A stretch of DNA of 64,000 nt, from assembly GCF_024519435.1 (NCBI RefSeq), contig NZ_JALJRZ010000015.1, positions 1 to 64,000 of the forward strand. Reading direction: 5' to 3'. The notes below the pieces were generated by a model. That model saw only the letters and a program-made list of their open reading frames with translations. It was not told the DNA's origin and searched no databases. Numbering within the stretch: position 1 is the stretch's first letter; every line of letters starts with the position of its first letter. This document shows positions 2,410 to 61,040 of this stretch, one piece after another. Source of the stretch: Terrabacter sp. Ter38. Lineage in GTDB: Bacteria > Actinomycetota > Actinomycetes > Actinomycetales > Dermatophilaceae. The position numbers and the translations under genes were made by a program.

Positions 2410-3213
2410 ATGCCGAGGTCGACCAGGCGAGTTGCCTTCGTCGACAGCGGTCTCGGGCTCCTCGGGTATGCCGACGCCCTCCACGCGCTGCGGCCCGACC
2501 TCGGGCTCGTGCTGTCGCTGGACCCGGACAACATGCCGTATGGCCCCCGCACGCCCGCGGAGGTCCAGCGACTCATCCTCGCCTCGGCGCGCGCCACCCT
2601 GCCCCACGAGCCGGCCGCGATCGTCGTGGCCTGCAACACCGCCTCGGTGCACGGGCTCGGTGCCCTCCGCGCCGAGCTCGAGCCGGCCGTCCCGGTCATC
2701 GGCACGGTGCCGGCCATCCGCCCGGCGGCCGCCGGGGGAGGACCGGTCGCCGTGTGGGCCACGGCTGCCACGACGTCGAGCGACTACCTCCGGGGCCTCG
2801 TCGATGCCTTCGCCGCCGACGTCGAGACGTATGCCGTCGCAGCCCTGGGGCTGGCAGAGGCCATCGAGTCCGGTGACCCTGACGCGGTCGACGCCGGCAT
2901 CGCGTATGCCGCGTCGCAGACCCCTGCGGGCGTACGCTCGCTCGTCCTCGGGTGCACCCACTACGGACTCGTCGTCGACCGGATCGTCGCTGCCCTCGGT
3001 GACGGGGTGACGATCCACGACTCACCCGTCGCCGTGGCCCGCCAGACGTTGCGGCGCCTCGGTCTCGAGCCCGCACCGGACGCCCCCGAGGCCGGTGTCG
3101 AGGCGGTCCTCCTCAGCGGCCGCCCCGGCGCCCTTCCCGCTTCGTGGGGGGTCTACCCGGCCGGGGAGCGGCTCCTCCGGGGCGCGGCAGGGCGGCATAC
3201 ACTCTCGTCATGA
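2410..3213 (+). CDS. murI: Glutamate racemase
   Basis: Converts L-glutamate to D-glutamate for peptidoglycan precursors. The 267-residue protein carries the family signatures in order: DSGLGLLG near the start, NMPYGPR, the first catalytic cysteine in VACNTAS and the second in LGCTHYG. Usual MurI length is 255-290. The ATG at 2410 was preferred over a GTG at 2362 because it leaves a short normal lead before the VAFVDSG strand. The canonical DSGVGGL is here DSGLGLL, a mild deviation, so another Asp/Glu racemase is possible but less likely. Its stop overlaps the start of the next gene (ATGA at 3210). Confidence 0.85.
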   Translation: MPRSTRRVAFVDSGLGLLGYADALHALRPDLGLVLSLDPDNMPYGPRTPAEVQRLILASARATLPHEPAAIVVACNTASVHGLGALRAELEPAVPVIGTVPAIRPAAAGGGPVAVWATAATTSSDYLRGLVDAFAADVETYAVAALGLAEAIESGDPDAVDAGIAYAASQTPAGVRSLVLGCTHYGLVVDRIVAALGDGVTIHDSPVAVARQTLRRLGLEPAPDAPEAGVEAVLLSGRPGALPASWGVYPAGERLLRGAAGRHTLSS

Positions 3214-3530
3214 GCACCATGCCTCCCGACCCGTTCGAGCCCGAGCCGCTGCGCGGCACGAGCACGGCCACGATCGAGCGCGAGGAGGTCCGCGAGGAGC
3301 TCCAGGAGCCCGGTGACCACGAGCGCTTCTCGCACTACGTGCGCAAGGAGAAGATCCTCGAGAGCGCGCTGTCGGGCGAGCCCGTCGTGGCCCTCTGCGG
3401 CAAGATCTGGGTCCCGGGGCGCGACCCCCAGAAGTTCCCGGTCTGTCCGGTCTGCAAGGAGATCTACGAAGGCCTTCGCGACCCGCAGGACGGCGGCGAC
3501 GGCGACCAGGGCGGCGGCGGACAGTCCTGA
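3210..3530 (+). CDS. DUF3039 domain protein
   Basis: A 106-residue actinobacterial protein of unknown function. The conserved core runs from HYVRKEKILESALSGEPVVA to KEIYEGL and contains cysteines in LCGK and in CPVCK, which suggest a small zinc-binding fold. The tail is acidic, then Gly-rich. The start codon overlaps the stop of the racemase gene, so translation is probably coupled. The family assignment is strong; nothing in the sequence reveals the partner or role. Confidence 0.88.
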   Translation: MSTMPPDPFEPEPLRGTSTATIEREEVREELQEPGDHERFSHYVRKEKILESALSGEPVVALCGKIWVPGRDPQKFPVCPVCKEIYEGLRDPQDGGDGDQGGGGQS

Positions 3531-4654: not shown

Positions 4655-4711
4655 CCACCAGCGCGACTGCTGCTCGGCGTCACGAAACCGACTGAGCGGC
4701 ATACCATCCAG

Positions 4712-4744: not shown

Positions 4745-4780
4745 ATGTCGGCCTCGGGGATTCGTTACGGTGGCCTCTCT

Positions 4781-6541
4781 ATGAGTTCAGGGGCCGCCTT
4801 CCACCTCCCACCCGCCTTCCCAGAGCGGGCTGCGTGGGGTACCGCCAGCAAGCTGCGCGCGTGGCAGCAGGAGGCCCTGGACCTCTACCTCGACAAGTCG
4901 CCGCGCGACTTCCTCGCGGTCGCGACCCCGGGGGCCGGCAAGACGACGTACGCCCTGCGGGTGGCCACCGAGCTGCTGAGCGCGGGCATCGTCTCGCGCG
5001 TCACGGTCGTCGCTCCCACGGAGCACCTCAAGACCCAGTGGGCCGACGCCGCCGCCCGCGTCGGCATCAGTCTCGACCCGAAGTTCAGCAACAGCATCGG
5101 CCGGCACAGCGACGACTACCACGGCGTCGCCGTGACCTACGCCCAGGTGGCCTCACGCCCGTCACTGCACCGTGAGCTGACGACGTCACGATCGACCCTC
5201 GTCATCCTCGACGAGGTGCACCACGGTGGCGACGCGAAGAGCTGGGGTGACGGCATCCGCGAGGCCTTCGAGCCCGCGACCCGCCGGCTGTCGCTGACCG
5301 GCACGCCCTTCCGCTCCGACACCTCGCCGATCCCCTTCGTCACCTACGAGCTCGACGCCGAGGGCACCCTCGTCAGCTCGAGCGACTACACGTACGGCTA
5401 CGCGGAGGCGCTGCGCGACGGGGTCGTGCGACCCGTCCTCTTCATGGCCTACGGCGGCAGCATGCGTTGGCGCACCAAGGCCGGCGACGAGCTCGAGGCG
5501 CGCCTCGGCGAGCCGATGACGAAGGACTTCGTCGCCCACGCGTGGCGCACGGCCCTCGACCCCAAGGGGGAGTGGATCCCCGCCGTCCTCGCCGCGGCCG
5601 ACCGGCGCCTCACCGAGGTGCGCCGCCACGTCGAGGACGCCGGCGGCCTCGTCATCGCCTCCAACCAGACCCAGGCGAGGGCGTATGCCGCCATCCTCCG
5701 CTCGCTGACCGGCGAGGCTCCCACGGTCGTCCTGTCCGACGACCTCGGCGCGAGCAAGCGCATCGAGGACTTCGGGGCGAGCGACGAGCGCTGGATGGTC
5801 GCCGTCCGCATGGTGTCCGAGGGGGTCGACGTGCCGCGGCTCGCGGTCGGGGTCTACGCGACCTCCACGTCGACGCCGCTCTTCTTCGCCCAGGCCGTCG
5901 GACGCTTCGTGCGTGCTCGCCGGCGGGGTGAGACCGCGTCGGTCTTCCTGCCCTCGGTGCCCGTGGTCCTCGACCACGCGGCCCGGCTCGAGGAGCAGCG
6001 CGACCACGCCCTCGACCGCAAGCCCAACCCCGATGACATCGGCCAGATGTGGGCCGAGGAGCAGACCCTGCTCGACGAGGCCAACCGCGCCGACAAGGCG
6101 AGCGGGGCCCTCGACGAGGGCGCGTTCGAGGCGCTCGAGTCCGACGCCCACTTCGACCACGTGCTCTTCGACAAGCAGCAGTGGGGCATGCACGCCCAGA
6201 TCGGGTCGGCGGACGAGGAGGAGTACCTCGGCCTGCCCGGCCTGCTCGAGCCCGACCAGGTGTCGGCGCTGCTCCGCGAGCGGCAGAGCCGCCAGGTCAA
6301 GAAGGCGCCCCAGGGCACCACCGCCCCCATGCCCGTCGCCGCCCACCGGGCCCTCGCCGCCCAGCGCAAGGAGCTCAACACGCTCGTCTCGACGTACGCC
6401 CGTCAGAAGGGGCTGCCGCACGCCAACGTCCACATGGACCTGCGGCGCGTCTGTGGCGGACCCGACCTCGCGGCCGCCTCGACCGAGCAGGTCACCGAGC
6501 GCATCGACAAGATCCGGCTCTGGCTCGTCGGCCGACGCTGA
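4781..6541 (+). CDS. DEAD/DEAH-type SF2 helicase
   Basis: A 586-residue superfamily 2 ATPase, probably acting on nucleic acid. Walker A is TPGAGKTT at 49-56, motif II is DEVH at 144-147, motif III-like LTGTPF follows, and motif VI is QAVGRFVRARR. A coiled, charged C-terminal region of about 150 residues has no recognised domain. The ATG at 4781 was chosen because an earlier in-frame ATG at 4745 lies at the foot of the preceding terminator hairpin. This helicase type is widespread in actinobacteria, but its cellular role is not known to me. Confidence 0.88.
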   Translation: MSSGAAFHLPPAFPERAAWGTASKLRAWQQEALDLYLDKSPRDFLAVATPGAGKTTYALRVATELLSAGIVSRVTVVAPTEHLKTQWADAAARVGISLDPKFSNSIGRHSDDYHGVAVTYAQVASRPSLHRELTTSRSTLVILDEVHHGGDAKSWGDGIREAFEPATRRLSLTGTPFRSDTSPIPFVTYELDAEGTLVSSSDYTYGYAEALRDGVVRPVLFMAYGGSMRWRTKAGDELEARLGEPMTKDFVAHAWRTALDPKGEWIPAVLAAADRRLTEVRRHVEDAGGLVIASNQTQARAYAAILRSLTGEAPTVVLSDDLGASKRIEDFGASDERWMVAVRMVSEGVDVPRLAVGVYATSTSTPLFFAQAVGRFVRARRRGETASVFLPSVPVVLDHAARLEEQRDHALDRKPNPDDIGQMWAEEQTLLDEANRADKASGALDEGAFEALESDAHFDHVLFDKQQWGMHAQIGSADEEEYLGLPGLLEPDQVSALLRERQSRQVKKAPQGTTAPMPVAAHRALAAQRKELNTLVSTYARQKGLPHANVHMDLRRVCGGPDLAAASTEQVTERIDKIRLWLVGRR

Positions 6542-6677: not shown

Positions 6678-8525
6678 ATGAGCACCGACCCCACCCCTGA
6701 CCTCCTCGGATCCTCCACCACCCGTCGCCAGCTGCTGGCCCTCGCTGCCGTCGGCGGCGCGGGCCTCGCGGCCGTGCGTTCGGCCGCGCCCGCCGACGCC
6801 GCTGCGGCGGCCGGCAAGGGCACGAATGGCGAGGTCGTCCGGCTGACCGTGCTCGGCACGACCGACCTGCACGGCAACGTCTACAACTGGGACTACTTCA
6901 AGAACGCCGAGTACACCGACGCCAAGGCCAACGACATCGGCGTGGCCAAGGCCTCCTCGATCATCAAGGCGATCCGCGCCGAGGTCGGCGCCGATCGCAC
7001 CCTGACGATCGACGCCGGCGACACGATCCAGGGCACGCCGCTCGCGTACTACTACGCGAAGATCGACCCCATCACCGGCGGCTCGACGCACCCCATGGCC
7101 GCGGCGATGAACCAGGTCGGCTACGACGCCGCCGCGCTCGGCAACCACGAGTACAACTACGGCCTCGACACGTTGCGCGCCTTCGAGAAGCAGCTGAACT
7201 TTCCGCTCCTGTCGGCCAACTCCGTCGACTGGAACACCGGCGCCCCCGTCTTCAAGCCGTGGGTCATCAAGACGGTCAAGGTGAAGGGGAGCAAGCCGGT
7301 CAAGGTCGGCATCCTCGGGCTCGTCACGCCCGGGGTCGCGATCTGGGACAAGGCCAACGTCGAGGGCAAGGTCAAGTTCCCCGGCATCATCGAGCAGGCG
7401 AAGGTCATGGTGCCCCGCCTCAAGGCCGCCGGCGCCGACGTGGTCATCGTCGCGTGCCACTCCGGCGACAACGGCAAGTCGTCGTGGGGCGACGCGCTGC
7501 CCTACGTCGAGAACGCGAGCGCGCTGCTCGCCGAGCAGGTCCCCGGCATCGACGCGGTCCTCGTCGGCCACGCGCACCTCGAGATCCCGCAGCGCTACGT
7601 CACGAACGCGCAGACGGGCAAGCAGGTCCTCCTCTCCGAGCCCTACTACTGGGGCATGCGAGTCACCCGGATGTCGATCGACCTCCAGAAGGTGCGCGGT
7701 CAGTGGGAGGTCGTCCACTCCGAGGCGACGCTCTACAACTCCAACGTCGCCCCCGAGGACCCTGCCGTCACCGGCGCCGTCGCGGCCGCCCACCAGAAGG
7801 TCCTGACCTACGTCAACGGCGTCATCGGCACGTGCACGCAGGCCATGTCGGCCGCGACGTCGCGTTACGAGGACACTGCCGCGATCGACTTCATCAACTA
7901 CGTCCAGGCCGACGCCGTCAAGAAGGCGCTCGCCGGCACGCCCGAGGCCTCGCTCCCCGTGCTGTCGATCGCCGCACCCTTCAACAAGCTCGCCGCGATC
8001 CCGGCCGGCGACGTGACGATCCGCGACGTGGCGGGCCTCTACATCTACGACAACACCCTGCTCGGCATCGTCCTGACCGGGGCCCAGGTCAAGGCGTACC
8101 TCGAGAAGAGCGCGGAGTACTTCAAGCCGTGCACGACGACGGGCCCGGTCGCCGCCGACACGATCACCAACGCCAACGCCACGCCCGACTACAACTACGA
8201 CGTCATGGGTGGGCTCGACGCCGACCTCACCTACGACATCGACCTCGCCCAGGCGGTCGGGTCGCGGATCGTCAACCTCGCGTATGCCGGCAGCCCCGTG
8301 GCGCCGGACGCGCGGTTCGTCGTCGCGATCAACAACTACCGCCAGTCGGGAGGCGGCAACTTCCCGGGCGTCGTGGCGGCCCCGGTCGTCTACAACCGAC
8401 AGATCGAGATCCGCCAGCTGCTCATCGACTGGGCGACGGCCAACAAGGTCATCGACCCGGCGGCCTTCTCCAGCATCGACTGGAAGCTCGTCAGCAACGG
8501 GAGCCCGATCACCGTCACCGCCTGA
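6678..8525 (+). CDS. Tat-exported 5'-nucleotidase / 2',3'-cyclic phosphodiesterase
   Basis: A 615-residue exported metallophosphoesterase. The N-terminus has a twin-arginine signal (TTRRQLLALAAVGGAGLAAV, then ADAA). The calcineurin-like domain has TTDLHGN, DAGDTIQGTP, LGNHEYNYG, ACHSG and GHAHLE metal-site motifs. The second half is a 5'-nucleotidase C-terminal domain with AAPFNKLA, a variant of the usual motif, and NNYRQSGGGNFPG, which binds the nucleoside. It should release phosphate and nucleosides outside the cell. The ATG at 6678 follows a GAAGGA ribosome site at good spacing. The exact substrate (5'-NMP or cyclic 2',3'-NMP) cannot be read from sequence. Confidence 0.92.
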   Translation: MSTDPTPDLLGSSTTRRQLLALAAVGGAGLAAVRSAAPADAAAAAGKGTNGEVVRLTVLGTTDLHGNVYNWDYFKNAEYTDAKANDIGVAKASSIIKAIRAEVGADRTLTIDAGDTIQGTPLAYYYAKIDPITGGSTHPMAAAMNQVGYDAAALGNHEYNYGLDTLRAFEKQLNFPLLSANSVDWNTGAPVFKPWVIKTVKVKGSKPVKVGILGLVTPGVAIWDKANVEGKVKFPGIIEQAKVMVPRLKAAGADVVIVACHSGDNGKSSWGDALPYVENASALLAEQVPGIDAVLVGHAHLEIPQRYVTNAQTGKQVLLSEPYYWGMRVTRMSIDLQKVRGQWEVVHSEATLYNSNVAPEDPAVTGAVAAAHQKVLTYVNGVIGTCTQAMSAATSRYEDTAAIDFINYVQADAVKKALAGTPEASLPVLSIAAPFNKLAAIPAGDVTIRDVAGLYIYDNTLLGIVLTGAQVKAYLEKSAEYFKPCTTTGPVAADTITNANATPDYNYDVMGGLDADLTYDIDLAQAVGSRIVNLAYAGSPVAPDARFVVAINNYRQSGGGNFPGVVAAPVVYNRQIEIRQLLIDWATANKVIDPAAFSSIDWKLVSNGSPITVTA

Positions 8526-11137: not shown

Positions 11138-12987
<1,850 letters not shown>

Positions 12988-22213: not shown

Positions 22214-22893
22214 TGGCCCGCGCCTTCCTGCGCGAGAAGGGCCACTACGTCGCGCTCCTCGAGCCCACCGAGCGGACGGTGCTCCTCGGCCTCATGCAGC
22301 AGACGCGTCTGCTGCTCTCGCCCGAGATCGAACCGACGGGTGACGCGTTCGACGACCTCGTGGCGTCGATGGGCCTGTCGCTGAGCCCTGCCGACCAGCA
22401 GACCGACTCCGCGTCGCTCGACGACCGAGACCCGGCCCTCGACCGGCTCCTGCCGACGGCCCACCGTGGTGACGACGAGATCGCGGCCGAGTTCCGTCGC
22501 CTCACCGAGGAGGGATTGCGCCAGCGCAAGAGCGGCAACCTCGACGTCGCCCTCGCGTGCGTCGACGGGGCCGTCGGCAACCGGGTCGTGCTCGACGAGT
22601 CGCAGGCGCCGGCCTTCCTCATGGCGCTCACCGACGTGCGCCTGCTGCTCGGGGAACGCATGGGCATGCGCACCGAGGAGGACGCCGAGGCGCTGCACGC
22701 CGCGATGGACGACATCGACGACGACGACCCGCTCGGCTACGCCATGGCGTGGTACGACTTCCTCACCTGGCTGCAGGAGACCCTCACCCAGGCGCTCATG
22801 GGCACCGACCTGCGTGACGTCGTGGCGGCATACGACGACGACCTCGACGACGACCTCGACGACGACGGCCGGCGGCCGGACGGCACGGTGTGA
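22213..22893 (+). CDS. DUF2017 family protein
   Basis: A 226-residue actinobacterial protein of unknown function. It is mostly alpha-helical, with LEPTERTVLLGLMQQTRLLL near the start and a conserved C-terminal helical block around WYDFLTWLQETLTQAL. It ends in a strongly acidic tail of repeated Asp pairs (DDDLDD). It is translationally coupled to clpS, a pairing conserved in many actinobacteria, which suggests a role with Clp-dependent proteolysis. That is inference. Confidence 0.88.
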   Translation: MARAFLREKGHYVALLEPTERTVLLGLMQQTRLLLSPEIEPTGDAFDDLVASMGLSLSPADQQTDSASLDDRDPALDRLLPTAHRGDDEIAAEFRRLTEEGLRQRKSGNLDVALACVDGAVGNRVVLDESQAPAFLMALTDVRLLLGERMGMRTEEDAEALHAAMDDIDDDDPLGYAMAWYDFLTWLQETLTQALMGTDLRDVVAAYDDDLDDDLDDDGRRPDGTV

Positions 22894-31019: not shown

Positions 31020-31109
31020 GACCCCATTGTGCGGTATGCCGCCCGGCGGGCGACCGCGTGTCCCTGTGGCCCCGCTCGGGGGAGTCGGGTCAGCCCGACG
31101 GTGGTGGTG

Positions 31110-32543: not shown

Positions 32544-32700
32544 ATGCACAACACGAGCCGGGCCCGAGGGCTCGGCGCCGTGTCACGGCGTCGACAATGC
32601 TACAGGCTCTCGTGAGGTGCTCGTGACCACCCCACCGACCACCCCACCGACGGCACGGGTGACGGCATACGCCATCGCCCGAAGGGCTGCGTCGGAGCGC

Positions 32701-45235: not shown

Positions 45236-45964
45236 ATGAACGGTATGAGACGTCACGTCCCCCTCGCCAACCTCACGCCGCGCCAGCAGCTGCGCGCCGG
45301 TCGCCTCCCGCGCCGCATCATCCAGCTCCTCGTGGGGCTCGTGCTCTACGGCGTCTCCATGGCGATGATGATCCGCTCGACGCTGGGCCTCGACCCGTGG
45401 GACGTCTTCCATGCCGGGATCGCCACGCACGTGTCGCTGACCTTCGGGCAGGTGACGATCATCGTCGGTGCGCTCGTCCTGCTGCTCTGGGTTCCGCTGC
45501 GGCAGTGGCCCGGTCTCGGCACCGTGGCCAACGTCGTCGTCATCGGCATCGCCGCGGACGCGGGCCTCGCCCTCATCGCGCCGCCGGAGGCGATGTGGGC
45601 CCGGGTGCTGCTCCTCACCTCCGGCATCGTGCTCAACGGCGTCGCCGGCGGCCTCTACATCGGCAGCCAGCTCGGTCCCGGCCCCCGCGACGGGCTCATG
45701 ACGGGCTTCGCGCGGCGCACCGGGCTGTCGATCCGGCTCGTCCGCACCACCATCGAGCTCGTCGTGCTCGCGGTGGGCTGGCTGCTCGGCGGACCCGTGG
45801 GCCTCGGCACCGTGCTGTATGCCGTGACGATCGGACCGTTGGTCCAGTTCTTCCTGCCCCGCCTGACCATCGACCTCGGCCATGCGGGAGCGCCCGCGTC
45901 CGCACCCGAGGAGGGCGCCGTCCCCGTGACGCCGACGTCGGCGCTGGGCTCGACGACGAGCTGA
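45236..45964 (+). CDS. YczE-family integral membrane protein
   Basis: A 242-residue protein with five or six predicted transmembrane helices, such as IIQLLVGLVLYGVSMAMMI and VVVIGIAADAGLALIAPP. It has the typical LGLDPWDVFHAGIA segment and GGLYIGSQLGPGPRDGLMTG of the YczE/YitT-like family. Such genes are often paired with a MocR regulator, as here. Transport of a vitamin B6-related or amino-acid compound is inferred from that pairing only. It is tail-to-tail with the 2H gene, 4 nt apart. Confidence 0.9.
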   Translation: MNGMRRHVPLANLTPRQQLRAGRLPRRIIQLLVGLVLYGVSMAMMIRSTLGLDPWDVFHAGIATHVSLTFGQVTIIVGALVLLLWVPLRQWPGLGTVANVVVIGIAADAGLALIAPPEAMWARVLLLTSGIVLNGVAGGLYIGSQLGPGPRDGLMTGFARRTGLSIRLVRTTIELVVLAVGWLLGGPVGLGTVLYAVTIGPLVQFFLPRLTIDLGHAGAPASAPEEGAVPVTPTSALGSTTS

Positions 45965-45968: not shown

Positions 45969-46511
45969 TCAGGCGCCCGCGAGGCGCCAGGACCGGAGCA
46001 CCCTGCAGGCGCCCGGCTCGTACCATGCGAGGTCGAGCCGTTCGGCCCGGCACCGAGCCGGGAGGTGGGGCCCGGCGAGCCTCCGGGTCGAGTCCTCGGT
46101 GACCACGTCGGAGAGGGCGTCGAGCGTCAGGTGCGGCCCCACGTCACCGAAGCGACCGGCATACGGCGGGTGCTGGGGGAAGGCGTCCCACAGCCGTGAG
46201 GTGAGGGTGGCGAAGGGCGCCGACGGCTCGGGCAGAAGGTGGACGATGCCGTTGGGGAACGTGTCGACGGTCTCGAGCGTGAACGCGAACGGCTTCGTCC
46301 TCGCTGCGATCTCGGCGATGACGTCGAGGGCTGTCTGCGTCAGGGCGCCGAGGTCGAGGAACGGCGCGAGCGCCGTGACGTGTGCGTGGACGAAGTCCGG
46401 GTCTGCGGAGACGTAGTCGGTGCCGTAGTGCGCCGTGCGGGACAGGACGAACGGCTCGAGCGCAGGCACGGGGACCTGGAGCACCGAGTGACCGGCGACC
46501 GTCGAGGTCAC
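45969..46511 (-). CDS. 2H phosphoesterase family protein (2'-5' RNA ligase-like)
   Basis: A 180-residue protein with the two signature HxT motifs: HVT at 44-46 (DFVHAHVTALAPFL) and HLT at 127-129 (VGPHLTLDAL). Two-histidine phosphoesterases cleave cyclic phosphodiesters or ligate 2'-5' RNA; the substrate here is unknown. The GTG at 46511 is the first in-frame start downstream of the TetR gene's stop (46525), with a 13-nt gap. It is on the same strand as the TetR gene and likely shares its transcript. Confidence 0.82.
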   Translation of the reverse strand: MTSTVAGHSVLQVPVPALEPFVLSRTAHYGTDYVSADPDFVHAHVTALAPFLDLGALTQTALDVIAEIAARTKPFAFTLETVDTFPNGIVHLLPEPSAPFATLTSRLWDAFPQHPPYAGRFGDVGPHLTLDALSDVVTEDSTRRLAGPHLPARCRAERLDLAWYEPGACRVLRSWRLAGA

Positions 46512-49371: not shown

Positions 49372-50436
49372 GTGTCGCGCCTTCGCACTGCCCTCCTCGC
49401 CGCCGTCGCCTCGGCCCTCGTCCTCGGCGGCTGCACCACCGGACCCGGGGACAGCTCCGACCCGGCTCCTGCCGCAGCGGCAGCGGGAGGGGGCGGGTCC
49501 CCGGGAGCCGACCCGACGGCATACCCCGTCACCCTGAAGGACGCCTTCGGCACGGCCACCATCACGAAGGAGCCGCAGCGGGTCGTCACGCTCGGCTGGT
49601 CCGACGCCGACCACGTGGCAGCGCTCGGGGTGGCCCCGGTCGGTGCCCCCAAGGTCACCTGGGGCGGCAACGCGAACCACTCGACGGACTGGTTCGACGC
49701 ACAGCTGGCCACCTTCGGTGGCGCCGCGCCGACCCGCTTCGACGACGCCGACGGCAACCCCGTCGAGGAGATCGCCAGGCTGGCGCCCGACCTCATCCTC
49801 GCGACGAACTCCGGCATCACGAAGGACGAGTACGACACGCTGAGCAAGCTCGCACCCGTCGTCGCCTATCCGGAGGTCGCCTACGGCACGCCGTGGCAGA
49901 CCTCGCTGGAGACGATCGGCAAGGCGCTCGGGCGCTCCACGCAGGCAGCTGCCGTCGAGGCGAAGACCGTCGGGGCGCTCGAAGGCGCCCGGGCGACGTA
50001 CCCGCAGCTCGCGGGCAAGACCTTCATCTACGGCTACGTCGCCCCGACCGACCTCTCGCAGATCGGCTTCTACACCCCGAGCGACCTCCGCCCGCAGATG
50101 CTGACCGAGCTCGGCATGAAGAACGCGCCGTTCGTCGAGAAGCGGGCCCAAGGCTCCACGGAGTTCTACCTGACCGTCAGTGCCGAGCAGGCGTCGACGC
50201 TCGAGGCCGACGTCTTCCTCACCTACATCACCGAGGACTCCGAGGTCGGCGTCATGACGAAGGACCCGCTCGTCGGCCAGGTGCCCGCGATCAAGGCGGG
50301 TGCGCTCGTCGCGACGAAGGACCAGAAGGTGGGCCTGACGATGAGCTCGCCGACGCCGCTGTCCATCCCGTACATGACCGAGCTGTTCGTGCCGCTCGTG
50401 GCGGCCGCGGCCGACAAGGCCGACGCCGCCCGATGA
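49372..50436 (+). CDS. Iron-siderophore ABC transporter substrate-binding lipoprotein
   Basis: A 354-residue lipoprotein of the periplasmic binding protein family with helical backbone (FepB/FhuD type). The signal peptide ends in a lipobox, LVLGGC, at about residue 20. A Gly/Ala/Pro-rich linker follows, then YPVTLKDAFGTATITKEP and RVVTLGWSDADHVAALGV. It captures ferric siderophore and passes it to the permeases encoded next. The GTG at 49372 begins the signal peptide; an ATG at 49306 is in frame but lies in the operator. It overlaps the permease gene by 4 nt. Confidence 0.92.
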   Translation: MSRLRTALLAAVASALVLGGCTTGPGDSSDPAPAAAAAGGGGSPGADPTAYPVTLKDAFGTATITKEPQRVVTLGWSDADHVAALGVAPVGAPKVTWGGNANHSTDWFDAQLATFGGAAPTRFDDADGNPVEEIARLAPDLILATNSGITKDEYDTLSKLAPVVAYPEVAYGTPWQTSLETIGKALGRSTQAAAVEAKTVGALEGARATYPQLAGKTFIYGYVAPTDLSQIGFYTPSDLRPQMLTELGMKNAPFVEKRAQGSTEFYLTVSAEQASTLEADVFLTYITEDSEVGVMTKDPLVGQVPAIKAGALVATKDQKVGLTMSSPTPLSIPYMTELFVPLVAAAADKADAAR

Positions 50437-51512: not shown

Positions 51513-52606
51513 ACGCCGACGTGCTCACCCCGAGCGGTGCCGTCGCCGACCCGCGCGCCGTGGCGGCGGAAGAGTCCGACGACCTCGCCCGCGTCGTGCG
51601 GGCCCGGCGACGTCCGGCGCGTCGGGTGCACCTCGTCATCGCGGCCCTCGCGGTGGCTGCGCTCGCCGCCGTGCTCGTCCGCGTGCTCCTCGGCGACTAC
51701 GTCGTCGCGCTCACCGACCTGCTGCTGATCCTCCGGGGCGAGACGCCGCCCGACGCGCCGGGCGCCTCCTTCATCGTCATGGAGGCCAAGCTGCCGCGTG
51801 CCCTGCTGGGGCTCCTCGCGGGTCTGGCGTTCGGGGCGGCAGGGGCGATGTTCCAGACCACCTTGCGCAATCCGCTGGCGAGCCCCGACATCATCGGCAT
51901 CAGCCTCGGGGCGTCCGCCGCAGCGGTCATCGCCCTGACCTTGCTCGACGCGCAGGGCCTCTGGCTGCCGGCCGCAGCCCTGCTCGGGGCGGTGGCCGTC
52001 AGCCTGCTCATGTATGCCGTGGGCCGCGGGACGACGCTCGCCGGCCAGCGCATGGTGCTCGTCGGCATCGGCGTCGCCGCCCTCCTGTCGAGCGTCATCC
52101 AGTTCGTCATGACGCGCACCTCGATCCAGGACGCGCAGGCGGCCCTCGTCTGGCTCACCGGGAGCCTCGCGCGTGCCACGTGGCCCGTCATCGGGCTGCT
52201 CTCGGCCGCGGTGCTCGTGCTCGCGCCCCTGCTCGCCGTGTGCGCGCGGTGGATGCGCCTCGCCGAGCTAGGCGACGAGCTGTCGACGACCCTCGGGGCG
52301 CCCGCAGGTCGGGCTCGTCTCGGGCTCGTCGTCGCGGTGGCCCTCGCCGCCGTCGCGACGAGCGCGACCGGGCCCATCGCGTTCGTCGCCTTCCTCGCGG
52401 GGCCGATCGCGCGCCGGCTCTGCGGTGGCCGGCCCTCCCTGTGGGCGGCCGCCCTCGTCGGGGCCGTCGTCGTCGTGCTGTCGGACTTCGCCGGCGACTA
52501 CCTCATCCCCGCCGTAAACCTCCCCGTCGGCGTCGTCACGGGCGCCCTCGGGGCACCCCTCATGCTCGCGGTCGTCGTCACCGCGGACCGAGCCGGAAAG
52601 GCCTGA
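51509..52606 (+). CDS. Iron-siderophore ABC transporter permease 2 (FecCD family)
   Basis: A 365-residue permease, the second half of the heterodimeric channel. Motifs are KLPRALLGLLAGLAFGAAGA, MFQTTLRNPLASPDIIGIS, and GPIAFVAFLAGPIARRLCG for ATPase contact. About ten membrane helices are predicted. The GTG at 51509 overlaps the stop of permease 1, and the ATPase gene starts one base after its own stop. Confidence 0.93.
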   Translation: MNADVLTPSGAVADPRAVAAEESDDLARVVRARRRPARRVHLVIAALAVAALAAVLVRVLLGDYVVALTDLLLILRGETPPDAPGASFIVMEAKLPRALLGLLAGLAFGAAGAMFQTTLRNPLASPDIIGISLGASAAAVIALTLLDAQGLWLPAAALLGAVAVSLLMYAVGRGTTLAGQRMVLVGIGVAALLSSVIQFVMTRTSIQDAQAALVWLTGSLARATWPVIGLLSAAVLVLAPLLAVCARWMRLAELGDELSTTLGAPAGRARLGLVVAVALAAVATSATGPIAFVAFLAGPIARRLCGGRPSLWAAALVGAVVVVLSDFAGDYLIPAVNLPVGVVTGALGAPLMLAVVVTADRAGKA

Positions 52607-53459: not shown

Positions 53460-54442
53460 CCACGACCGCCGTCAGCCCCGTCCTGCTCCTCACTGCCGTC
53501 GTCCGACGGGTCGAGCGACTCAGTCCGTCCTTCGTCCGAATCAGTCTGGGCGGCAACGGTTTCGAGCACCTCGGGCCCGCGGGGCCCACGCTCGACCAAC
53601 GCGTCAAGCTGCTCATCCCGTCGCCGGGGCGGCCCGCGCCGAGCGCGCTCCTCGACCCCGACGGGTGGTATGCCGTGTGGCTCGCGCTGCCCGAGGCGGA
53701 GCGTGGTCACCTGCGCACCTACACGGCCCGCGCCGTCGAGGGGGAGGGGGCCGACCGCCGGCTCGTCGTCGACTTCGTGCTGCACGGTCACGGTCCGCAC
53801 GAGGCGGCCGGCGCCGCTGTCGGTCCCGCCGGCACGTGGGCGGCGGGTGCAGCCGTCGGCGACGAGATCGGCCTGCTCGCCCCGCGGCGTGGTCACGAAC
53901 ACGACTTCGGAGGGATCGAGTTCGACCCGGGGGCGGCGAGGCGTCTCGTCCTCGTCGCCGACGAGACGGCCCTCCCCGCCCTCGCCTCGATCGTCGAGTC
54001 CCTACCGGCGGGCACCCGGGGTGTGGCCGTCGTGGAGGTGCCCGACGACACGGACTTCCTCGACGTCCGCTTCCCGGCCGGGATCGAGCCTCACTGGATC
54101 GCTCGGGGAGCCCGACCCCGGGGTGAGCAGACACTCGCCGTGCTGCGCGCATGCCTGGACCTGTGCCCGCACGAGCGTGGCCTCGCGGACGCGCCGGCCC
54201 TCGGCCCTGCCGTCGACCTCGACGACGACGTGTGGGAGACCCCGACCCGCAGCTCCTCGGGCGCCGACGTCACGACGGTGAGCAACGAGCCGGGGTGGGC
54301 GGACGTCAGGGAGACGTACGCGTGGGTCGCCGGCGACTCCGACACGGTCAAGGCCTGTCGACGCCTCCTCGTGGGCGAGGGAGGCATGCCCCGTCCGCAG
54401 GTCGCCTTCATGGGGTACTGGAAGCAGGGACGCGCCAGCTGA
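53456..54442 (+). CDS. Siderophore-interacting protein (ferric-siderophore reductase)
   Basis: A 328-residue FAD/NAD(P)H reductase of the SIP family that releases iron from imported siderophores by reduction in the cytoplasm. The FAD domain has LRTYTARAVE, the RxYTxR-type motif, and VVDFVLHGHG. The C-terminal domain has LVLVADETALPALASIVE and AWVAGDSDTVKACRRLLV, then YWKQGRAS at the end. The GTG at 53456 overlaps the ATPase stop. It is the last gene of the iron operon and completes the import-to-release path. Confidence 0.94.
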   Translation: MTTTAVSPVLLLTAVVRRVERLSPSFVRISLGGNGFEHLGPAGPTLDQRVKLLIPSPGRPAPSALLDPDGWYAVWLALPEAERGHLRTYTARAVEGEGADRRLVVDFVLHGHGPHEAAGAAVGPAGTWAAGAAVGDEIGLLAPRRGHEHDFGGIEFDPGAARRLVLVADETALPALASIVESLPAGTRGVAVVEVPDDTDFLDVRFPAGIEPHWIARGARPRGEQTLAVLRACLDLCPHERGLADAPALGPAVDLDDDVWETPTRSSSGADVTTVSNEPGWADVRETYAWVAGDSDTVKACRRLLVGEGGMPRPQVAFMGYWKQGRAS

Positions 54443-54622
54443 GCAGCGCCTTCCCCACCCGCCCCGACGGGCGCGTCGCGGCACGGCGCGCCGACCGGCA
54501 TACGGCCGTTTGCGCTCGACGGGCCCGGGCAGGAGAGAATGCGCTGTGCGGCCACCGTCGTCCGCAGGTCGCCACGCCGTGGCGCCGCGGCACTGCCGCG
54601 ACCGAACGACGGAAGAAGGTCC

Positions 54623-56794
54623 ATGGAGATCTGGCCGGGCAAGCCCTACCCACTCGGAGCGACGTACGACGGCTCGGGGGTCAACTTCGCCGTCTTCTCC
54701 GAGGTCGCCGAACGCATCGAGCTCTGCCTGCTCGACGACGACCTGAACGAGACGCGCTTCGACCTGCCCGAGACGGACGGCTTCGTGTGGCACGGCTACG
54801 TCCCCTACGTGCAGCCCGGGCAGCGCTACGGCTTCCGCGTCCACGGACCCTACGACCCCGCGAACGGCCACCGCTGCAACCCGAGCAAGTTCCTGCTCGA
54901 CCCGTACGCCAAGGCGATCGAGGGCCAGGCCGAGAACGACCAGTCGCTCTACTCGTACACCTTCGGCGACGCGAAGGCTGCGACGACGACGAAGATCAAC
55001 ACGGACGACAACGTGCGCCACACGATGCACTCCATCGTCATCAACCCGTTCTTCGACTGGGGCGACGACCGTCCGCCGCGCCACGAGTACCACGAGAGCA
55101 TCATCTACGAGGCCCACGTCAAGGGGCTGACGATGCTCCACCCGGAGATCCCCGAGGAGATCCGCGGCACGTATGCCGGCATCGCGCACCCGGCGACGAT
55201 CAAGCACCTGAGCGACCTCGGCATCACCGCCATCGAGCTCATGCCCGTGCACCAGTTCGTCCAGGACGCGCCGCTCGTCGACCGCGGCCTGTCCAACTAC
55301 TGGGGTTACAACACCATCGGCTTCCTCGCACCGCACAACGAGTACGCCGCCGGTGGGCAGCGTGGCCAGCAGGTGCTCGAGTTCAAGGCCATGGTCAAGG
55401 CGCTGCACGCGGCCAACATCGAGGTCATCCTCGACGTCGTCTACAACCACACGGCCGAGGGCAACCACATGGGCCCGACGCTGGCCTTCCGCGGGCTCGA
55501 CAACAACAGCTACTACCGCCTCGTCGGAAACGACCTCAGCCACTACTACGACACCACGGGCACGGGCAACAGCCTCCTCATGCGCAGCCCGCACGTGCTG
55601 CAGCTGATCATGGACTCCCTCCGCTACTGGGTCACCGAGATGCACGTCGACGGCTTCCGCTTCGACCTCGCCGCGACACTGGCCCGCCAGTTCCACGAGG
55701 TCGACAAGCTCTCGGCCTTCTTCGACCTCATCCAGCAGGACCCGGTCGTCAGCCAGGTCAAGCTCATCGCCGAGCCGTGGGACGTCGGTGAGGGCGGCTA
55801 CCAGGTGGGCAACTTCCCCCCGCTCTGGACCGAGTGGAACGGCAAGTACCGCGACACGGTGCGCGACTTCTGGCGGGGGGAGGGCGGCGCGCTCGGCGAG
55901 TTCGCCTCTCGTTTCACGGGATCCAGCGACCTCTACGAGCACTCAGGGCGCAAGCCGATCGCCTCGATCAACTTCGTGACGGCCCACGACGGCTTCACCC
56001 TGCGCGACCTCGTGTCCTACAACGACAAGCACAACGAGGCCAACGGCGAGGGCAACAACGACGGCGAGAGCCACAACCGGTCGTGGAACTGCGGCGTCGA
56101 GGGTCCGACCACCGACCCGGTCATCCGTGACCTGCGGCTGCGCCAGCAGCGCAACTTCCTCACGACGCTGCTCTTCTCCCAGGGCGTGCCGATGATGCTC
56201 CACGGTGACGAGCTCGGCCGCACCCAGGGCGGCAACAACAACGGCTACTGCCAGGACAACGACATCTCGTGGATCCAGTGGGTCCTCGACGAGGACGACC
56301 AGAAGCTGCTCGTCTTCACGCAGTCGCTGGTCAAGCTGCGCCGCGAGCACCCGGTGTTCCGCCGCCGCCGGTTCTTCGCCGGCAACGCCGACCACGGCGG
56401 CGAGAGCGAGCTCGGGGACATCGCCTGGTTCACGCCCGAGGCGCAGCACATGGACGAGGAGGCCTGGAGCAACGGACTCGCCAAGTCGCTGATGATCTTC
56501 CTCAACGGCTCGGCCATCCCCGAGCCGGACCCACGCGGCCAGCAGATCCTCGACGACTCGTTCCTCGTGATGTTCAACGCCCACCAGGAGCCGCTGACCT
56601 TCACGCTGCCCGACGAAGAGTACGGCGCCGAGTGGATCCCGGTCATCGACACGGCCCTGCACGAGGTCGAGGCCAACCACCTCGACGCGACGTGGCAGAT
56701 CCAGGTCCAGCCGCGCAGCATCGTCGTGCTGAGGTGCCCGCGCGAGATCGTCTCGCCCATCATCCCCGGTATCACGGAGGAGGCCACCGCGTGA
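54623..56794 (+). CDS. glgX: Glycogen debranching enzyme GlgX (TreX)
   Basis: A 723-residue GH13 isoamylase-type enzyme that removes short side chains from glycogen. The N-terminal CBM48 region begins WPGKPYPLGATYDGSGVNFA. The catalytic residues are Asp348 in GFRFDLA and Glu384 in IAEPWD, with DVVYNH at 271-276. No signal peptide. The ATG at 54623 matches the usual start (MEVWPG in relatives). An in-frame ATG at 54539 with AGGAG before it could add an Arg-rich 28-residue lead. The gap 54443-54622 holds the promoter and one GTATGCCG-family site. It is the first gene of the trehalose operon and overlaps treY. Confidence 0.95.
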   Translation: MEIWPGKPYPLGATYDGSGVNFAVFSEVAERIELCLLDDDLNETRFDLPETDGFVWHGYVPYVQPGQRYGFRVHGPYDPANGHRCNPSKFLLDPYAKAIEGQAENDQSLYSYTFGDAKAATTTKINTDDNVRHTMHSIVINPFFDWGDDRPPRHEYHESIIYEAHVKGLTMLHPEIPEEIRGTYAGIAHPATIKHLSDLGITAIELMPVHQFVQDAPLVDRGLSNYWGYNTIGFLAPHNEYAAGGQRGQQVLEFKAMVKALHAANIEVILDVVYNHTAEGNHMGPTLAFRGLDNNSYYRLVGNDLSHYYDTTGTGNSLLMRSPHVLQLIMDSLRYWVTEMHVDGFRFDLAATLARQFHEVDKLSAFFDLIQQDPVVSQVKLIAEPWDVGEGGYQVGNFPPLWTEWNGKYRDTVRDFWRGEGGALGEFASRFTGSSDLYEHSGRKPIASINFVTAHDGFTLRDLVSYNDKHNEANGEGNNDGESHNRSWNCGVEGPTTDPVIRDLRLRQQRNFLTTLLFSQGVPMMLHGDELGRTQGGNNNGYCQDNDISWIQWVLDEDDQKLLVFTQSLVKLRREHPVFRRRRFFAGNADHGGESELGDIAWFTPEAQHMDEEAWSNGLAKSLMIFLNGSAIPEPDPRGQQILDDSFLVMFNAHQEPLTFTLPDEEYGAEWIPVIDTALHEVEANHLDATWQIQVQPRSIVVLRCPREIVSPIIPGITEEATA

Positions 56795-59220
56795 GGTATG
56801 CCAGCGCACCCGTCTCGACCCACCGGCTCCAGCTCGAGCCGGACTTCACCCTCGAAGACGCGGTCGCGCAGGTGAAACACCTTGCGGCACTGGGGATCAC
56901 GCACGTATACCTGTCGCCGATCCTGCAGGCCACCGTCGGCTCCAAGCACGGTTACGACGTCACCGACCACACCTCCGTGGCGCAGGGGCTGGGTGGTGAC
57001 GCCGGCTTCGCCCGCCTCGTCGAGGCAGCCCACGAGGCCGGACTCGGCGTGGTCGTCGACGTCGTGCCCAACCACATGACGACGCCGACGCCGCTCTCGC
57101 TCAACCGCCCGCTGTGGTCGGTGCTCCGCGAGGGCCGGCAGTCGGCATACGCCACGTGGTTCGACGTCGACTGGGACGCCCAGGACGGGCGCCTCCTGAT
57201 GCCCGTGCTCGGGGCGCCGCTCGACGACGTGCTCGCATCGGGCGAGATCTCCGTGGGGGAGCACGACGGCGAGACGGTGGTGCGCTACTACGACCACGTG
57301 TTCCCGCTGGCCCCCGGCACGGATCCGGGTCTGCCGATCGCCGAGCTGTTGGCGGCGCAGCACTATCGCCTCGCGTGGTGGACGGTCGGCGACTCCGAGC
57401 TGAACTACCGCCGCTTCTTCGACGTCACGTCGCTCATCGCGGTCCGGGTCGAGGAGCCGGAGGTCTTCGACGCCACGCACGTCCTCCTCGTGGAGGGGAT
57501 CCGCTCCGGCGCGATCGACGGGCTGCGCATCGACCACCCGGACGGCCTTGCCGACCCGGAGGGCTACCTCGAGCGTCTCGGTGACGTTACCGGCGACGCG
57601 TGGGTCGTCGTCGAGAAGATCCTCGAGGGCCACGAGCAGCTTCCACACCTCTGGCGGACGGCCGGCACCACCGGCTACGACGCCCTGCTGCGCATCGGCG
57701 GGCTCTTCGTCGACCCCGCCGGAGCCGAGCCCCTCGACGGCCTGTCGACCGAGCTGCTCGGGGAACGGCAGGATCTGGGGGACATCGTCACGCAGTCGAA
57801 GCGGTGGGTGGTGCAGGTCATGCTCGCCACGGAGGTGAACCGGCTCATGCGCCTCGTCGCGCGCGCACGGCCCGACCTTGACGAAGCCGCAGCTCGCGCG
57901 GTGCTCGAGGCGATGCTCGTCGGCATGGACCGCTATCGCGTCTACGTGCGGCCCGGAGCACCTGCTGCGAGCGAGGACGCCGCCGAGCTGCGGGCGGCGG
58001 CGTCGCGTGGTGCGCAGAGCGCGTCGGGTGCCCTGGACCGCACCGTCGTCGAGCGTCTCGTCGACCTCGCTCTCGGCGTGGGGGACGCGCAGGACGACGC
58101 GGCGCGCGACGAGTTCGTCGTGCGGTTCCAGCAGACGTGCGGTCCGGCCATGGCCAAGGCGATCGAGGACACGGCGTACTACCGTTACGTCCGGCTCGTC
58201 GGGCTCAACGAGGTCGGCGGCGACCCGACGCAGGTGGGGCTGCCGACGGCCGACTTCCACGGGTTCGCCGAGAACCTGCTCGGAGAGTGGCCGCAGTCGA
58301 TGACGACGCTCTCGACCCACGACACGAAGCGGTCCGAGGACGTGCGGGCGCGGCTCTTCGTCCTCGCGGAGCGGCCGGAAGCGTGGGCGACCTGGGTCCG
58401 CACAGCACGCGAGCTGGCGACACCGGTCCGTGCCGAGGAGCTCGACGCGCTCACCGAGTACTTCCTGTGGCAGACCGTCGTCGGGGCGTGGCCCATCAGT
58501 GAGGAGCGCCTGCAGGGCTACGCGCTCAAGGCGATCCGCGAGTCGAAGCTGCACACGCGGTGGACCGAGCCGAACGAGGCCTACGAGTCGGCGGTCGAGC
58601 GGTTCGTCGCGGGTGTCGTCACGACACCGGCGATCGTGGCGCACGTCGAGGCCTGGGTCGGCTCGACGGAGCGCGAGACGCGAGCCAACGTGCTCGGCCA
58701 GAAGGTCGTCCAGCTGACGATGCCGGGTGTGCCCGACGTCTACCAGGGCACCGACCTCGTCGACCTGTCGCTCGTCGACCCCGACAACCGGCGGCTCGTC
58801 GACTACGCCGACCGGCGCGACCGGCTCACCCGGCTCGACCGCGGGGCGGCGCCCGCGGACCTCGACGACGAGAAGCTGCTCGTCACGACGGCTGCCCTGC
58901 GCACGCGCCGTGGGTGGCCCGAGTGCTTCACGGGGGAGGACGCGACCTATGTCCCGGTCGGGACCGGCTCCGAGCACGTCGTCGCCTTCGGGCGGGGCAC
59001 GGGCGAGGGCCTCGGGATCGTCACCGTGGTGACCCGTCTCGCCGGTCGCCTCGCCGACGCCGGCGGCCTGGGGGACGCCACTCTCGACCTCCCTGAGGGG
59101 CGGTGGTCGGACGTCGTCTCCGCACGCACGTTCGACGGGGGCCGCACGCGCCTGGCCGACCTCGTCGGCGACGACGGCCTGCCCGTCGCGCTGCTCGTGC
59201 GGGTAAGGGACGAGTCATGA
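56791..59220 (+). CDS. treY: Maltooligosyl trehalose synthase
   Basis: Isomerises the reducing-end alpha-1,4 link of maltodextrins to alpha,alpha-1,1. The 809-residue GH13 protein has VDVVPNHM (88-96), the nucleophile Asp248 in GLRIDHPDGLADP, the acid/base Glu275 in VVVEKILEG, and late in the protein STHDTKRSEDVRARL, which is specific to TreY. The GTG at 56791 overlaps the glgX stop by 4 nt with a GGAGGAG ribosome site inside glgX. Its stop overlaps the treZ start. Cytoplasmic. Confidence 0.95.
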   Translation: MRYASAPVSTHRLQLEPDFTLEDAVAQVKHLAALGITHVYLSPILQATVGSKHGYDVTDHTSVAQGLGGDAGFARLVEAAHEAGLGVVVDVVPNHMTTPTPLSLNRPLWSVLREGRQSAYATWFDVDWDAQDGRLLMPVLGAPLDDVLASGEISVGEHDGETVVRYYDHVFPLAPGTDPGLPIAELLAAQHYRLAWWTVGDSELNYRRFFDVTSLIAVRVEEPEVFDATHVLLVEGIRSGAIDGLRIDHPDGLADPEGYLERLGDVTGDAWVVVEKILEGHEQLPHLWRTAGTTGYDALLRIGGLFVDPAGAEPLDGLSTELLGERQDLGDIVTQSKRWVVQVMLATEVNRLMRLVARARPDLDEAAARAVLEAMLVGMDRYRVYVRPGAPAASEDAAELRAAASRGAQSASGALDRTVVERLVDLALGVGDAQDDAARDEFVVRFQQTCGPAMAKAIEDTAYYRYVRLVGLNEVGGDPTQVGLPTADFHGFAENLLGEWPQSMTTLSTHDTKRSEDVRARLFVLAERPEAWATWVRTARELATPVRAEELDALTEYFLWQTVVGAWPISEERLQGYALKAIRESKLHTRWTEPNEAYESAVERFVAGVVTTPAIVAHVEAWVGSTERETRANVLGQKVVQLTMPGVPDVYQGTDLVDLSLVDPDNRRLVDYADRRDRLTRLDRGAAPADLDDEKLLVTTAALRTRRGWPECFTGEDATYVPVGTGSEHVVAFGRGTGEGLGIVTVVTRLAGRLADAGGLGDATLDLPEGRWSDVVSARTFDGGRTRLADLVGDDGLPVALLVRVRDES

Positions 59221-61040
59221 CCCCCGACACCCTGACCGTCTGGGCCCCGTCGGCGTCCAGGGTCGACATCATCGTCACTCGCGTCGACGGGTCCGGTGCG
59301 GAGCCGACCTCGGCGGCGCAGCGGCACGCCATGACCGCCGCCGACGGTGGCTGGTGGAACTGGGCCCGTCCCGACGACGTCACCCTCGACTACTCCTTCA
59401 GCATCGACGGTGGAGACGCCCGGCCCGACCCGCGCAGCGCCTGGCTGCCGCACGGCGTCCACGGCGCGAGCCGCACCTTCGACGCGGCGGCCCACGCCTG
59501 GGCCGACGCTGGGTGGCGCGGCACCCGTGACGGCCGTGGCGTCCTCGGCGGCGTCGTCTACGAGCTGCACATCGGGACGTTCACGCCGGAGGGCACCTTC
59601 GACGCGGCGATCGCCCACCTCGGGCACCTCGTCGAGCTCGGGGTCGACGTCGTCGAGGTCATGCCCGTCGCGGCCTTCGGCGGCACGCACGGCTGGGGCT
59701 ACGACGGTGTCGCGCCGTATGCCGTCCAGCAGGCCTATGGCGGCCCCGCGGCCTTCCAGCGCTTCGTCGACGCGTGCCACGCCCATGGCCTCGGCGTGTG
59801 CCTCGACGTCGTCTACAACCACCTCGGTCCCACCGGCAACTACCTCGCCGAGTTCGGCCCCTACTTCACCGACACCCACACGACGCCGTGGGGTCCGGCC
59901 GTCAACCTCGACGCGGACGGTAGCCACGAGGTGCGGCGCTGGGTCGTCGACAACGCCCTCCGGTGGCTCCGCGACTTCCACGTCGACGCGCTCCGGCTCG
60001 ACGCCGTGCACGAGCTGCGCGACGCGTCCGAGCCCCACATCCTCGCCCAGCTCTCAGACGAGACCGCTTCTCTCGCACAGGAGCTCGGTCGTCCACTCGA
60101 CCTCATCGCCGAGAGCGACCTCAACGACGCCGTCATGGTGACGCCCACCGCCGAAGGTGGCCGCGGCATGACGGCCCAGTGGGACGACGACATCCACCAC
60201 GCCCTCCACGTGGCTCTGACCGGCGAGACGCAGGGTTACTACGCCGACTTCGCCGGCGGCAACGAGGCGTGGCCAGAGGGCGGCTCGATCTCGGTGCTGG
60301 CCAAGACGCTCACCGACGCCTTCCTGCACGACGGCCGCGTTTCCACGTTCCGAGGCGAGCTCTGGGGTGCGCGCGTCGACCCGGAGATGCGCTCGGGGCA
60401 CGAGTTCCTCGCCTACCTGCAAACCCACGACCAGGTGGGCAACCGCGCGACGGGCGACCGCATCAGCGACCAGGTCTCGCCCGGGCAGCAGGCGATCGGC
60501 GCCGCCCTCTACCTGCTCTCCCCCTTCACGGCCATGGTCTTCATGGGCGAGGAGTGGCGGGCGAGCACCCCGTTCGCGTTCTTCACCTCCTTCGAGGAGG
60601 AGTGGCTGGCTGACGCGGTGCGCTCCGGCAGGCGTGCCGAGTTCGCCGCCCATGGGTGGGACGAGGCCGACGTCCCCGACCCCCAGGACCCCTCCACCCG
60701 GGCGCACAGCGTGCTCGACTGGAGCGAGCCGAACGCGCCGGGACACAACGAGATGCTCCACTTCTACCGTGAGCTCATCAAGGTGCGGCGCACGCAGCCG
60801 GATGTCGCCTCCGGAGACCTGCGTGCTACGACGGTGACCTTCGACGAGACTGCCCGCTGGATGATCCTGTCGCGCGGTTCGGTGCACGTGGTGGCCAACC
60901 TCGCGGGCCGCGCCGGCATCGTGCCGTTCGCCGGCGAGGTCCAGCACGTGCTCGCCTCGTGGGGGCGGGCGCCGATCGTCGACTCGCACGGTGTCAGCCT
61001 GGACGGCCACGACGTCGCCGTCCTGCGCACGACCCCATGA
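59217..61040 (+). CDS. treZ: Maltooligosyl trehalose trehalohydrolase
   Basis: Releases trehalose from the TreY product. The 607-residue GH13 protein has an N-terminal E-set domain (LTVWAPSASRVDIIV), ELHIGTFTPEGTF, DVVYNHLGPTGNY (198-210), the nucleophile Asp262 in ALRLDAVHELRD and the acid/base Glu299 in IAESD. LQTHDQVGNRATGDR is typical of TreZ. The ATG overlaps the treY stop. With glgX and treY it completes the glycogen-to-trehalose pathway, used for osmotic and desiccation stress and carbon storage. Confidence 0.95.
   Translation: MTPDTLTVWAPSASRVDIIVTRVDGSGAEPTSAAQRHAMTAADGGWWNWARPDDVTLDYSFSIDGGDARPDPRSAWLPHGVHGASRTFDAAAHAWADAGWRGTRDGRGVLGGVVYELHIGTFTPEGTFDAAIAHLGHLVELGVDVVEVMPVAAFGGTHGWGYDGVAPYAVQQAYGGPAAFQRFVDACHAHGLGVCLDVVYNHLGPTGNYLAEFGPYFTDTHTTPWGPAVNLDADGSHEVRRWVVDNALRWLRDFHVDALRLDAVHELRDASEPHILAQLSDETASLAQELGRPLDLIAESDLNDAVMVTPTAEGGRGMTAQWDDDIHHALHVALTGETQGYYADFAGGNEAWPEGGSISVLAKTLTDAFLHDGRVSTFRGELWGARVDPEMRSGHEFLAYLQTHDQVGNRATGDRISDQVSPGQQAIGAALYLLSPFTAMVFMGEEWRASTPFAFFTSFEEEWLADAVRSGRRAEFAAHGWDEADVPDPQDPSTRAHSVLDWSEPNAPGHNEMLHFYRELIKVRRTQPDVASGDLRATTVTFDETARWMILSRGSVHVVANLAGRAGIVPFAGEVQHVLASWGRAPIVDSHGVSLDGHDVAVLRTTP

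Follow-up and report, generated by a model that had tools for sequence, protein, structure and literature searches.

An abundant octamer and its dialects in Terrabacter and related Actinomycetota: a probable DNA uptake sequence

The octamer in the window and across its genome

The window, that is the whole 64-kb stretch of DNA analysed here, belongs to a genome that LeuS places in Terrabacter (Terrabacter sp. Root85, 98%), and the element under study in it is the octamer GTATGCCG, which appears as CGGCATAC when read on the minus strand. Exact-word search of both strands recovered 30 copies (19 plus, 11 minus), whereas 100 dinucleotide shuffles of the window averaged 0.65 copies and never exceeded 4. 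The over-representation claimed in an earlier note on this DNA was thus confirmed, as were its count of about 30 and 29 of its positions, the exception being a copy placed at 45815 that actually begins at 45817. Gene context, taken from genes predicted with a simple caller of our own, put 25 of the 30 copies inside genes and five between genes, the same five that had been named before.

Plus-strand copies lying in the sense orientation of a gene and in the phase that reads Tyr-Ala were found at 2466-2473, 2829-2836, 2904-2911, 5683-5690, 8282-8289, 12300-12307, 18199-18206, 23108-23115, 27352-27359, 38287-38294, 39786-39793, 45817-45824, 52012-52019, 53668-53675, 55171-55178 and 59717-59724, and minus-strand copies of the same orientation and phase at 44835-44842 and 46157-46164. 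Antisense copies in the Ala-Tyr phase occupy 44449-44456 and 44539-44546 on the plus strand and 22826-22833, 28912-28919, 49517-49524 and 57143-57150 on the minus strand, and a further antisense copy, in phase 0, lies at 3193-3200 (minus). The copies between genes are at 31034-31041 (plus) and at 4697-4704, 11670-11677, 32663-32670 and 54496-54503 (minus).

The word is equally prominent in the genome as a whole (54 contigs, 4,831,409 bases), where 2069 copies of GTATGCCG were counted, or 428 per Mb, alongside 210 copies of the reversed word (107 + 103). The two strands of this genome held 1036 and 1033 copies, and 20 stretches of the complete genome G111 (genomes are labelled G and genera g throughout) held 166 plus and 172 minus copies; these counts do not support a strand-biased site, a possibility for which the earlier note had proposed a test. 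A 464-kb sample of the Terrabacter genome, consisting of the window and 20 stretches of 20 kb, contained 215 copies, one per 2.2 kb. In this sample GTATGCCG or one of its sub- or super-words came first in each of ten rankings of 6- to 10-mers occurring at least 20 times, under Markov models of order 2 and of order 3, the latter being a comparison already proposed for this word. A weaker extension, T or C and then C, follows on the 3' side of the octamer, and it is not purely a codon effect because its first position is strongest at intergenic sites (0.91 bits, 67 sites). The one-letter neighbours of GTATGCCG, when summed, numbered 370 versus 360 expected in this genome and 456 versus 324 in G111.

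Codon-preserving shuffles of the called genes in the 464-kb sample (40 shuffles, with protein and codon usage fixed) yielded 8.7 +/- 3.2 copies and never more than 16, in comparison to 152 observed, so that the genic count lay far outside the shuffled range. Four related octamers were not enriched in the same shuffles, with observed and expected counts of 42 and 67 for GTACGCCG, 1 and 4.6 for GTATGGCG, 4 and 6.5 for GTATCCCG and 30 and 29.8 for GCATGCCG, and the equal enrichment of other octamers that would have spoken for a general bias was absent among them; the reversed word was mildly enriched in genes (18 versus 4.9), which qualifies the specificity of this result. The word takes the form xxG-TAT-GCC-Gxx in 97 of the 152 genic copies and xCG-GCA-TAC in 33. 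TAT supplies only 7.4% of Tyr codons (182 TAT codons in total), and 97 of 107 sense copies are set in the phase that contains it, in agreement with the use of rare codons, on both strands and in more than one phase, that had been described from the window.

Conservation of individual sites was followed at six loci around leuS in Terrabacter and one close relative, using ordered pair comparisons, which are not independent of one another. Sites were intact in 228 of 281 ordered pairs (81%), in comparison to 36% for any octamer at the same loci and 48 of 654 (7%) for octamers that have the same codon layout with a NAT codon. When four Intrasporangium and Humibacillus loci were added, the comparisons involving them found the word intact in 191 of 385 cases, any octamer in 24% and NAT-layout octamers in 38 of 792. 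The codon shuffles and the preservation of sites among relatives, together with the use of both orientations and of several phases, support the earlier proposal that selection, or drive, acts on the DNA and not on the protein.

In the 464-kb sample 62 of 215 copies were intergenic, with one further copy overlapping a gene end, versus 28.6 expected by length. Close inverted pairs (at most 62 bases) in this genome were convergent in nine cases and divergent in one (p 0.02), and three of the nine convergent pairs sit in gaps between convergent genes.

Spread of the word and its dialects among relatives

Terrabacter is assigned to the Intrasporangiaceae in NCBI, and the family from which our set of 186 genomes in 53 genera was drawn is presumably the Dermatophilaceae of GTDB. 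The nine genomes of the genus Terrabacter that were searched carried 1423-2358 copies of GTATGCCG each, and across the family 106 of 186 genomes had at least 400 copies and 80 had fewer. Several genera were low in the word, and lone low genomes occurred inside genera (G016 in g4, G122 in g42 and G092 in g33). Outside the family, 273 sampled genomes from 19 other families of the order held at most 177 copies each, and in 1.36 Mb from other actinobacterial families each of the six words described here was found at 0.012-0.138 per kb. Because the loci pooled from other actinobacterial genera were homologous, k-mer scans of these pools were set aside.

Genomes poor in GTATGCCG frequently carried a different word. 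In 20 such genomes, ten of them sampled over 80 kb each and the other ten over 40 kb each, about half showed another dominant word, scored as observed versus expected under a second-order model. These words were GGATGCCG (103 versus 6.3 in G178, 52 versus 4.1 in G042), GTACGCCG (62 versus 8.8 in G010, 61 versus 10.4 in G098 and 35 versus 4.2 in G023, with a related form in G022), GTACGGCG (46 versus 9.9 in G092), CGATGCGG (65 versus 11.8 in G091) and CGAAGGGG (59 versus 7.4 in G060, 27 versus 5.0 in G101), and like GTATGCCG they occupied both strands of genes in several phases. The 40- or 80-kb samples of G165, G104, G009, G018, G076, G027 and G046 showed no dominant word, and no clear word was assigned from those of G016, G030 and G184.

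Whole-genome counts over the 186 genomes, made for GGATGCCG, GTACGCCG and CGAAGGGG, with GTACGGCG and CGATGCGG known from the samples, bore out the three words counted. GGATGCCG reached 3619-4480 copies in G025, G026, G042, G043 and G178, 2195 in G044 and 2099 in G045, and 241-1336 elsewhere, the highest density being about 1200 per Mb (4480 copies in 3.7 Mb). GTACGCCG was present at 1125-4185 copies in G010, G011, G020-G023 and G096-G098 and at 1463 in G092, with at most 1011 elsewhere, and CGAAGGGG at 1198-2588 copies in every one of the 16 g27 genomes and at 2589-3180 in each of the three from g36, with 84-396 elsewhere. Another word at similar density was thus assigned to 35 of the 80 genomes poor in GTATGCCG, and a clear word to 141 of the 186 genomes (106 GTATGCCG, 5 GGATGCCG, 9 GTACGCCG, 19 CGAAGGGG, and G092 and G091 by sample).

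When GTATGCCG, GGATGCCG, GTACGCCG and GTACGGCG are designated A, B, C and D, single letters separate A from B, A from C and C from D, and all six words share A3, G5 and G8 in a register that we chose and on which the shared letters depend. A LeuS tree of 29 rows placed B in two separate positions, with G178 beside Humibacillus (word A) and G042 beside G044; D grouped with Lapillicoccus (word A), and CGAAGGGG occurred in two places, one of them at an open fork. In genus g15, G042 and G043 carry mostly GGATGCCG (4480 and 3619 copies), and G044 and G045 carry both GTATGCCG (1217 and 1189) and GGATGCCG (2195 and 2099), which can be interpreted either as a switch in progress or as a reader that accepts both words. 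G111 accepts other letters at position 6, as GTATGGCG occurs there 76 times versus 13.1 expected. In g47, G162 and G167 contained 1210 and 1336 copies of GGATGCCG in comparison to 614-949 in ten other genomes of the genus, possibly a word near the beginning or the end of its history. A different kind of repeat was seen at G022:C1 100001-140000 (L165, L166), where ACGAAATGC occurs ten times in 40 kb, eight of the copies sharing further letters; this is perhaps a clustered regularly interspaced short palindromic repeat (CRISPR) array or another repeat array.

Competence genes, Tad loci and a candidate word reader

ComEA and ComEC are encoded near leuS in the Terrabacter genome, and across relatives ComEC was found in 79 of 80 genomes examined and ComEA at all 20 comEC loci fetched. 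Two Tad loci of this genome resemble the tad pair of Micrococcus luteus, as judged by gene content only, and their labels as counterparts of M. luteus tad-1 and tad-2 are to be read in that sense. The locus labelled tad-2 (C1:120055-125211) contains pilins of Rv3655c and Rv3654c type, and the locus labelled tad-1 (C3, locus L235, 5888-10681) lies ahead of a gene that by eye is prfB-like. Fragments of a tad-1-like ATPase, some with stop codons, were also seen at G000:C11 36964-46317, where they are apparently decaying.

The tad-1 locus encodes a pilin-like protein with a two-cysteine loop, the two cysteines being invariant in 12 aligned rows, which had no Pfam or NCBIfam match at E 0.01 and is labelled TadE2 here because of its place and look. 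A profile search for TadE2-like proteins found one in 68 of 78 genomes, comprising 54 word-bearing genomes (G012, with 785 copies of GTACGCCG, counted among them) and 24 others. Since G096 could not be judged at a contig end, an undamaged protein was scored in 50 of 53 word-bearing genomes versus 16 of 24 others (Fisher p 0.003); damaged copies occurred in G064 (split between frames) and G101 (a stop), and counting damaged copies as present gave p 0.0002. Both p-values are too small because phylogeny was uncorrected.

The tad-1 locus was absent more often in wordless genomes. A search of 38 genomes for its ATPase gave a long match of at least 60% in 28, the wordless G165, G018, G027, G184 and G016 included, and no match above 50% identity in G009, G030, G031, G046, G076, G077, G078, G104 and G105, of which the G077 and G078 assemblies are in many contigs. 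Pieces of the ATPase were seen in G031 (47 residues at 49%) and G101 (71 residues with a stop). Overall, the tad-1 pilin-like protein is a weak candidate for the word receptor.

Several other factors were considered as the cause of word presence and set aside. ComEC (79 of 80) and Tad-type ATPases in general, which are near-universal, showed no association with the word, and the strongest-scoring extra ATPase matches did not track it by eye among the matches listed. The tad-2 pilins occurred in word-bearing and wordless genomes alike, with no clear signal by eye, and were not found in the G093, G022 and G111 stretches.

The tad-1 operon itself is split between the ATPase and pilin genes in three genomes, G178, G092 and G184. 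In G178 an insert of lower G+C content (61%), in which a 39-base unit is repeated in 15 copies, lies at C1 2425001-2432000 (L249), and the distance from tadA to the TadE2-like gene is about 40 kb in G092:C1 (270260, 310331) and about 13 kb in G184:C1 (1288176, 1302085). This part of a competence locus may be a preferred site for mobile DNA.

A DNA uptake word and its alternatives

Uptake words with dialects are, according to a 2025 paper (PMC12616744), known only from the Neisseriaceae and Pasteurellaceae. GTATGCCG resembles the DNA uptake sequence (DUS) of the Neisseriaceae, as portrayed in sections of PMC3630211, in being an abundant short word whose dialects vary in a few letters outside a common core (CTG in the Neisseriaceae) and follow phylogeny; inverted pairs of the DUS were counted there in several genomes. 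It differs in belonging to Actinomycetota and not Proteobacteria, in having 8 and not about 12 letters, and in occurring with Tad pili, known here from sequence, in place of a pilus whose minor pilin ComP reads the DUS. With the uptake signal sequence of the Pasteurellaceae it shares a density of hundreds per Mb, the range there being 200-800 (excerpts of PMC12616744 and PMC5217627). The same excerpts describe two dialect groups, a minor pilin as the predicted receptor and pairing in terminators, the latter in Haemophilus influenzae (PMC5217627); the word and the family are unrelated to those described here, and six words occur here. Within the same phylum, M. luteus possesses comEA and comEC and requires two tad clusters for transformation (parts of PMC4322843), a set of genes similar to that described above, and uptake-word terms were absent from the two M. 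luteus papers searched, PMC4322843 included. Our literature search, which covered few subscription papers or preprints, showed among the papers listed no account of this word or of any Actinomycetota uptake word, and the 20 listed of 643 full-text matches for the octamer were unrelated by title.

Because the word is abundant, held on DNA and strand-blind, and has changing dialects, we consider it probable that GTATGCCG is one dialect, local to this lineage, of a DNA uptake sequence, a reading that the earlier note had not put forward. Such sequences are recognised by densities of hundreds per Mb, on both strands and both in and between genes, and the words look like a tag for telling own-kind DNA at uptake, DNA uptake being what we infer to recognise them. 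Free DNA would enter members of the family by way of Tad (Flp) pili, ComEA and ComEC, with a surface receptor that prefers word-carrying DNA. Incoming DNA and its recombinants would then be enriched for the word, which would accumulate and be held across the chromosome. A shift of one letter in receptor preference might cause a genome to drift slowly to a new word, and the dialects would keep lineages apart. A more ambitious combination of claims, in our estimate somewhat more likely to fail in some part than to hold throughout, is that this is a third bacterial family in which DNA uptake words evolved independently, the first outside Proteobacteria and the first to use Tad pili for the purpose, with six or more dialects (one occurring in two separate lineages), genomes caught in mid-switch and a tad-1 pilin-like reader of drifting specificity.

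It is important to note that several observations weigh against an uptake word or its proposed reader. G111 showed no intergenic excess (72 copies versus 89 expected, with genes called using Terrabacter codon weights), and its close pairs, five convergent and 12 divergent, were unlike those of the Terrabacter genome. Word density did not rise with gene typicality, dropping instead from 0.49 to 0.27 per kb across codon-score quartiles. G178, whose words are among the densest, lacks the TadE2-like protein and has a foreign-looking insert at the position of the pilin genes, although it keeps tadA, tadB and tadC of tad-1; therefore either a recent loss or another receptor is needed, and this genome counts against the tad-1 pilins being needed now. 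Since 16 of the 24 genomes lacking a recognised word have the TadE2-like protein, and nearly all have ComEC, the presence of this machinery is no predictor of the word. ComEA was set aside as the specificity factor, a 26-row alignment having revealed by eye no difference that tracked the word.

Among known systems, Chi and HIP1 (highly iterated palindrome 1) are likewise abundant octamers, but both fit worse than the DUS. A Chi-like site, at which RecBCD or the actinobacterial AdnAB would pause and so protect self DNA, has in its favour that Chi, too, is an octamer spread over the whole genome, with words that differ between lineages. Chi of Escherichia coli is, however, strongly strand-biased, unlike the octamer in G111, and AdnAB is not known to respond to Chi. 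Moreover, a search for RecC (PF04257) gave no match in 14 of 25 word-bearing genomes, the Terrabacter genome included (G012 counted, G090 left out), and detected the protein in 6 of 10 genomes that lack a clear word. RecBCD Chi was rejected because of the absence of strand bias and of RecC in the word's own genome, and the recombination site suggested in the earlier note is not supported in this form; a Chi-like role in the wider sense appears quite unlikely.

Alternatively, the octamer may be a word that a chromosome-organising protein binds or that a non-restricting DNA methyltransferase modifies. The cyanobacterial HIP1, beside which passages of PMC4390886 list Chi and uptake words as the two other classes, is a comparable octamer of unsettled function that is linked to methyltransferases. 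HIP1 is, however, a palindrome with an internal methyltransferase site and, according to those passages, the same in all instances, whereas GTATGCCG is non-palindromic and is swapped among relatives for words that differ from it by a single letter or by a few. An explanation of this kind, which the earlier note had also listed, is improbable but keeps some weight as a rival. The mild enrichment of the reversed word in genes would agree with an indirect effect of bias in codons, dinucleotides or mutation. Such an effect is hardly credible in view of the genic count (152 versus 8.7), the conservation of word sites far above like octamers, the intergenic excess and the one-letter neighbours, in total unenriched in the genome of the word, and for that genome the shuffle and the conservation refute it.

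If the octamer is indeed an uptake word, a third family with six words in 186 genomes, and a Gram-positive one, would indicate that such self-recognition evolves repeatedly, and many natural word switches would be open to study. The search for the receptor would be directly testable through sister genomes with different words, and matching the word on DNA would provide a handle for transforming these bacteria.

Stretches devoid of the word were also inspected. The three longest had codon scores of 0.19, 0.26 and 0.23 versus a mean of 0.32, and the longest sampled, G000:C5 1-17338 (L027), combines low codon scores with two proteins that are integrase-like by eye. A third Tad locus, with two Flp-like pilins, starts in a wordless stretch of 13 kb at G000:C1 83456-96455 (L013) and was perhaps acquired recently.

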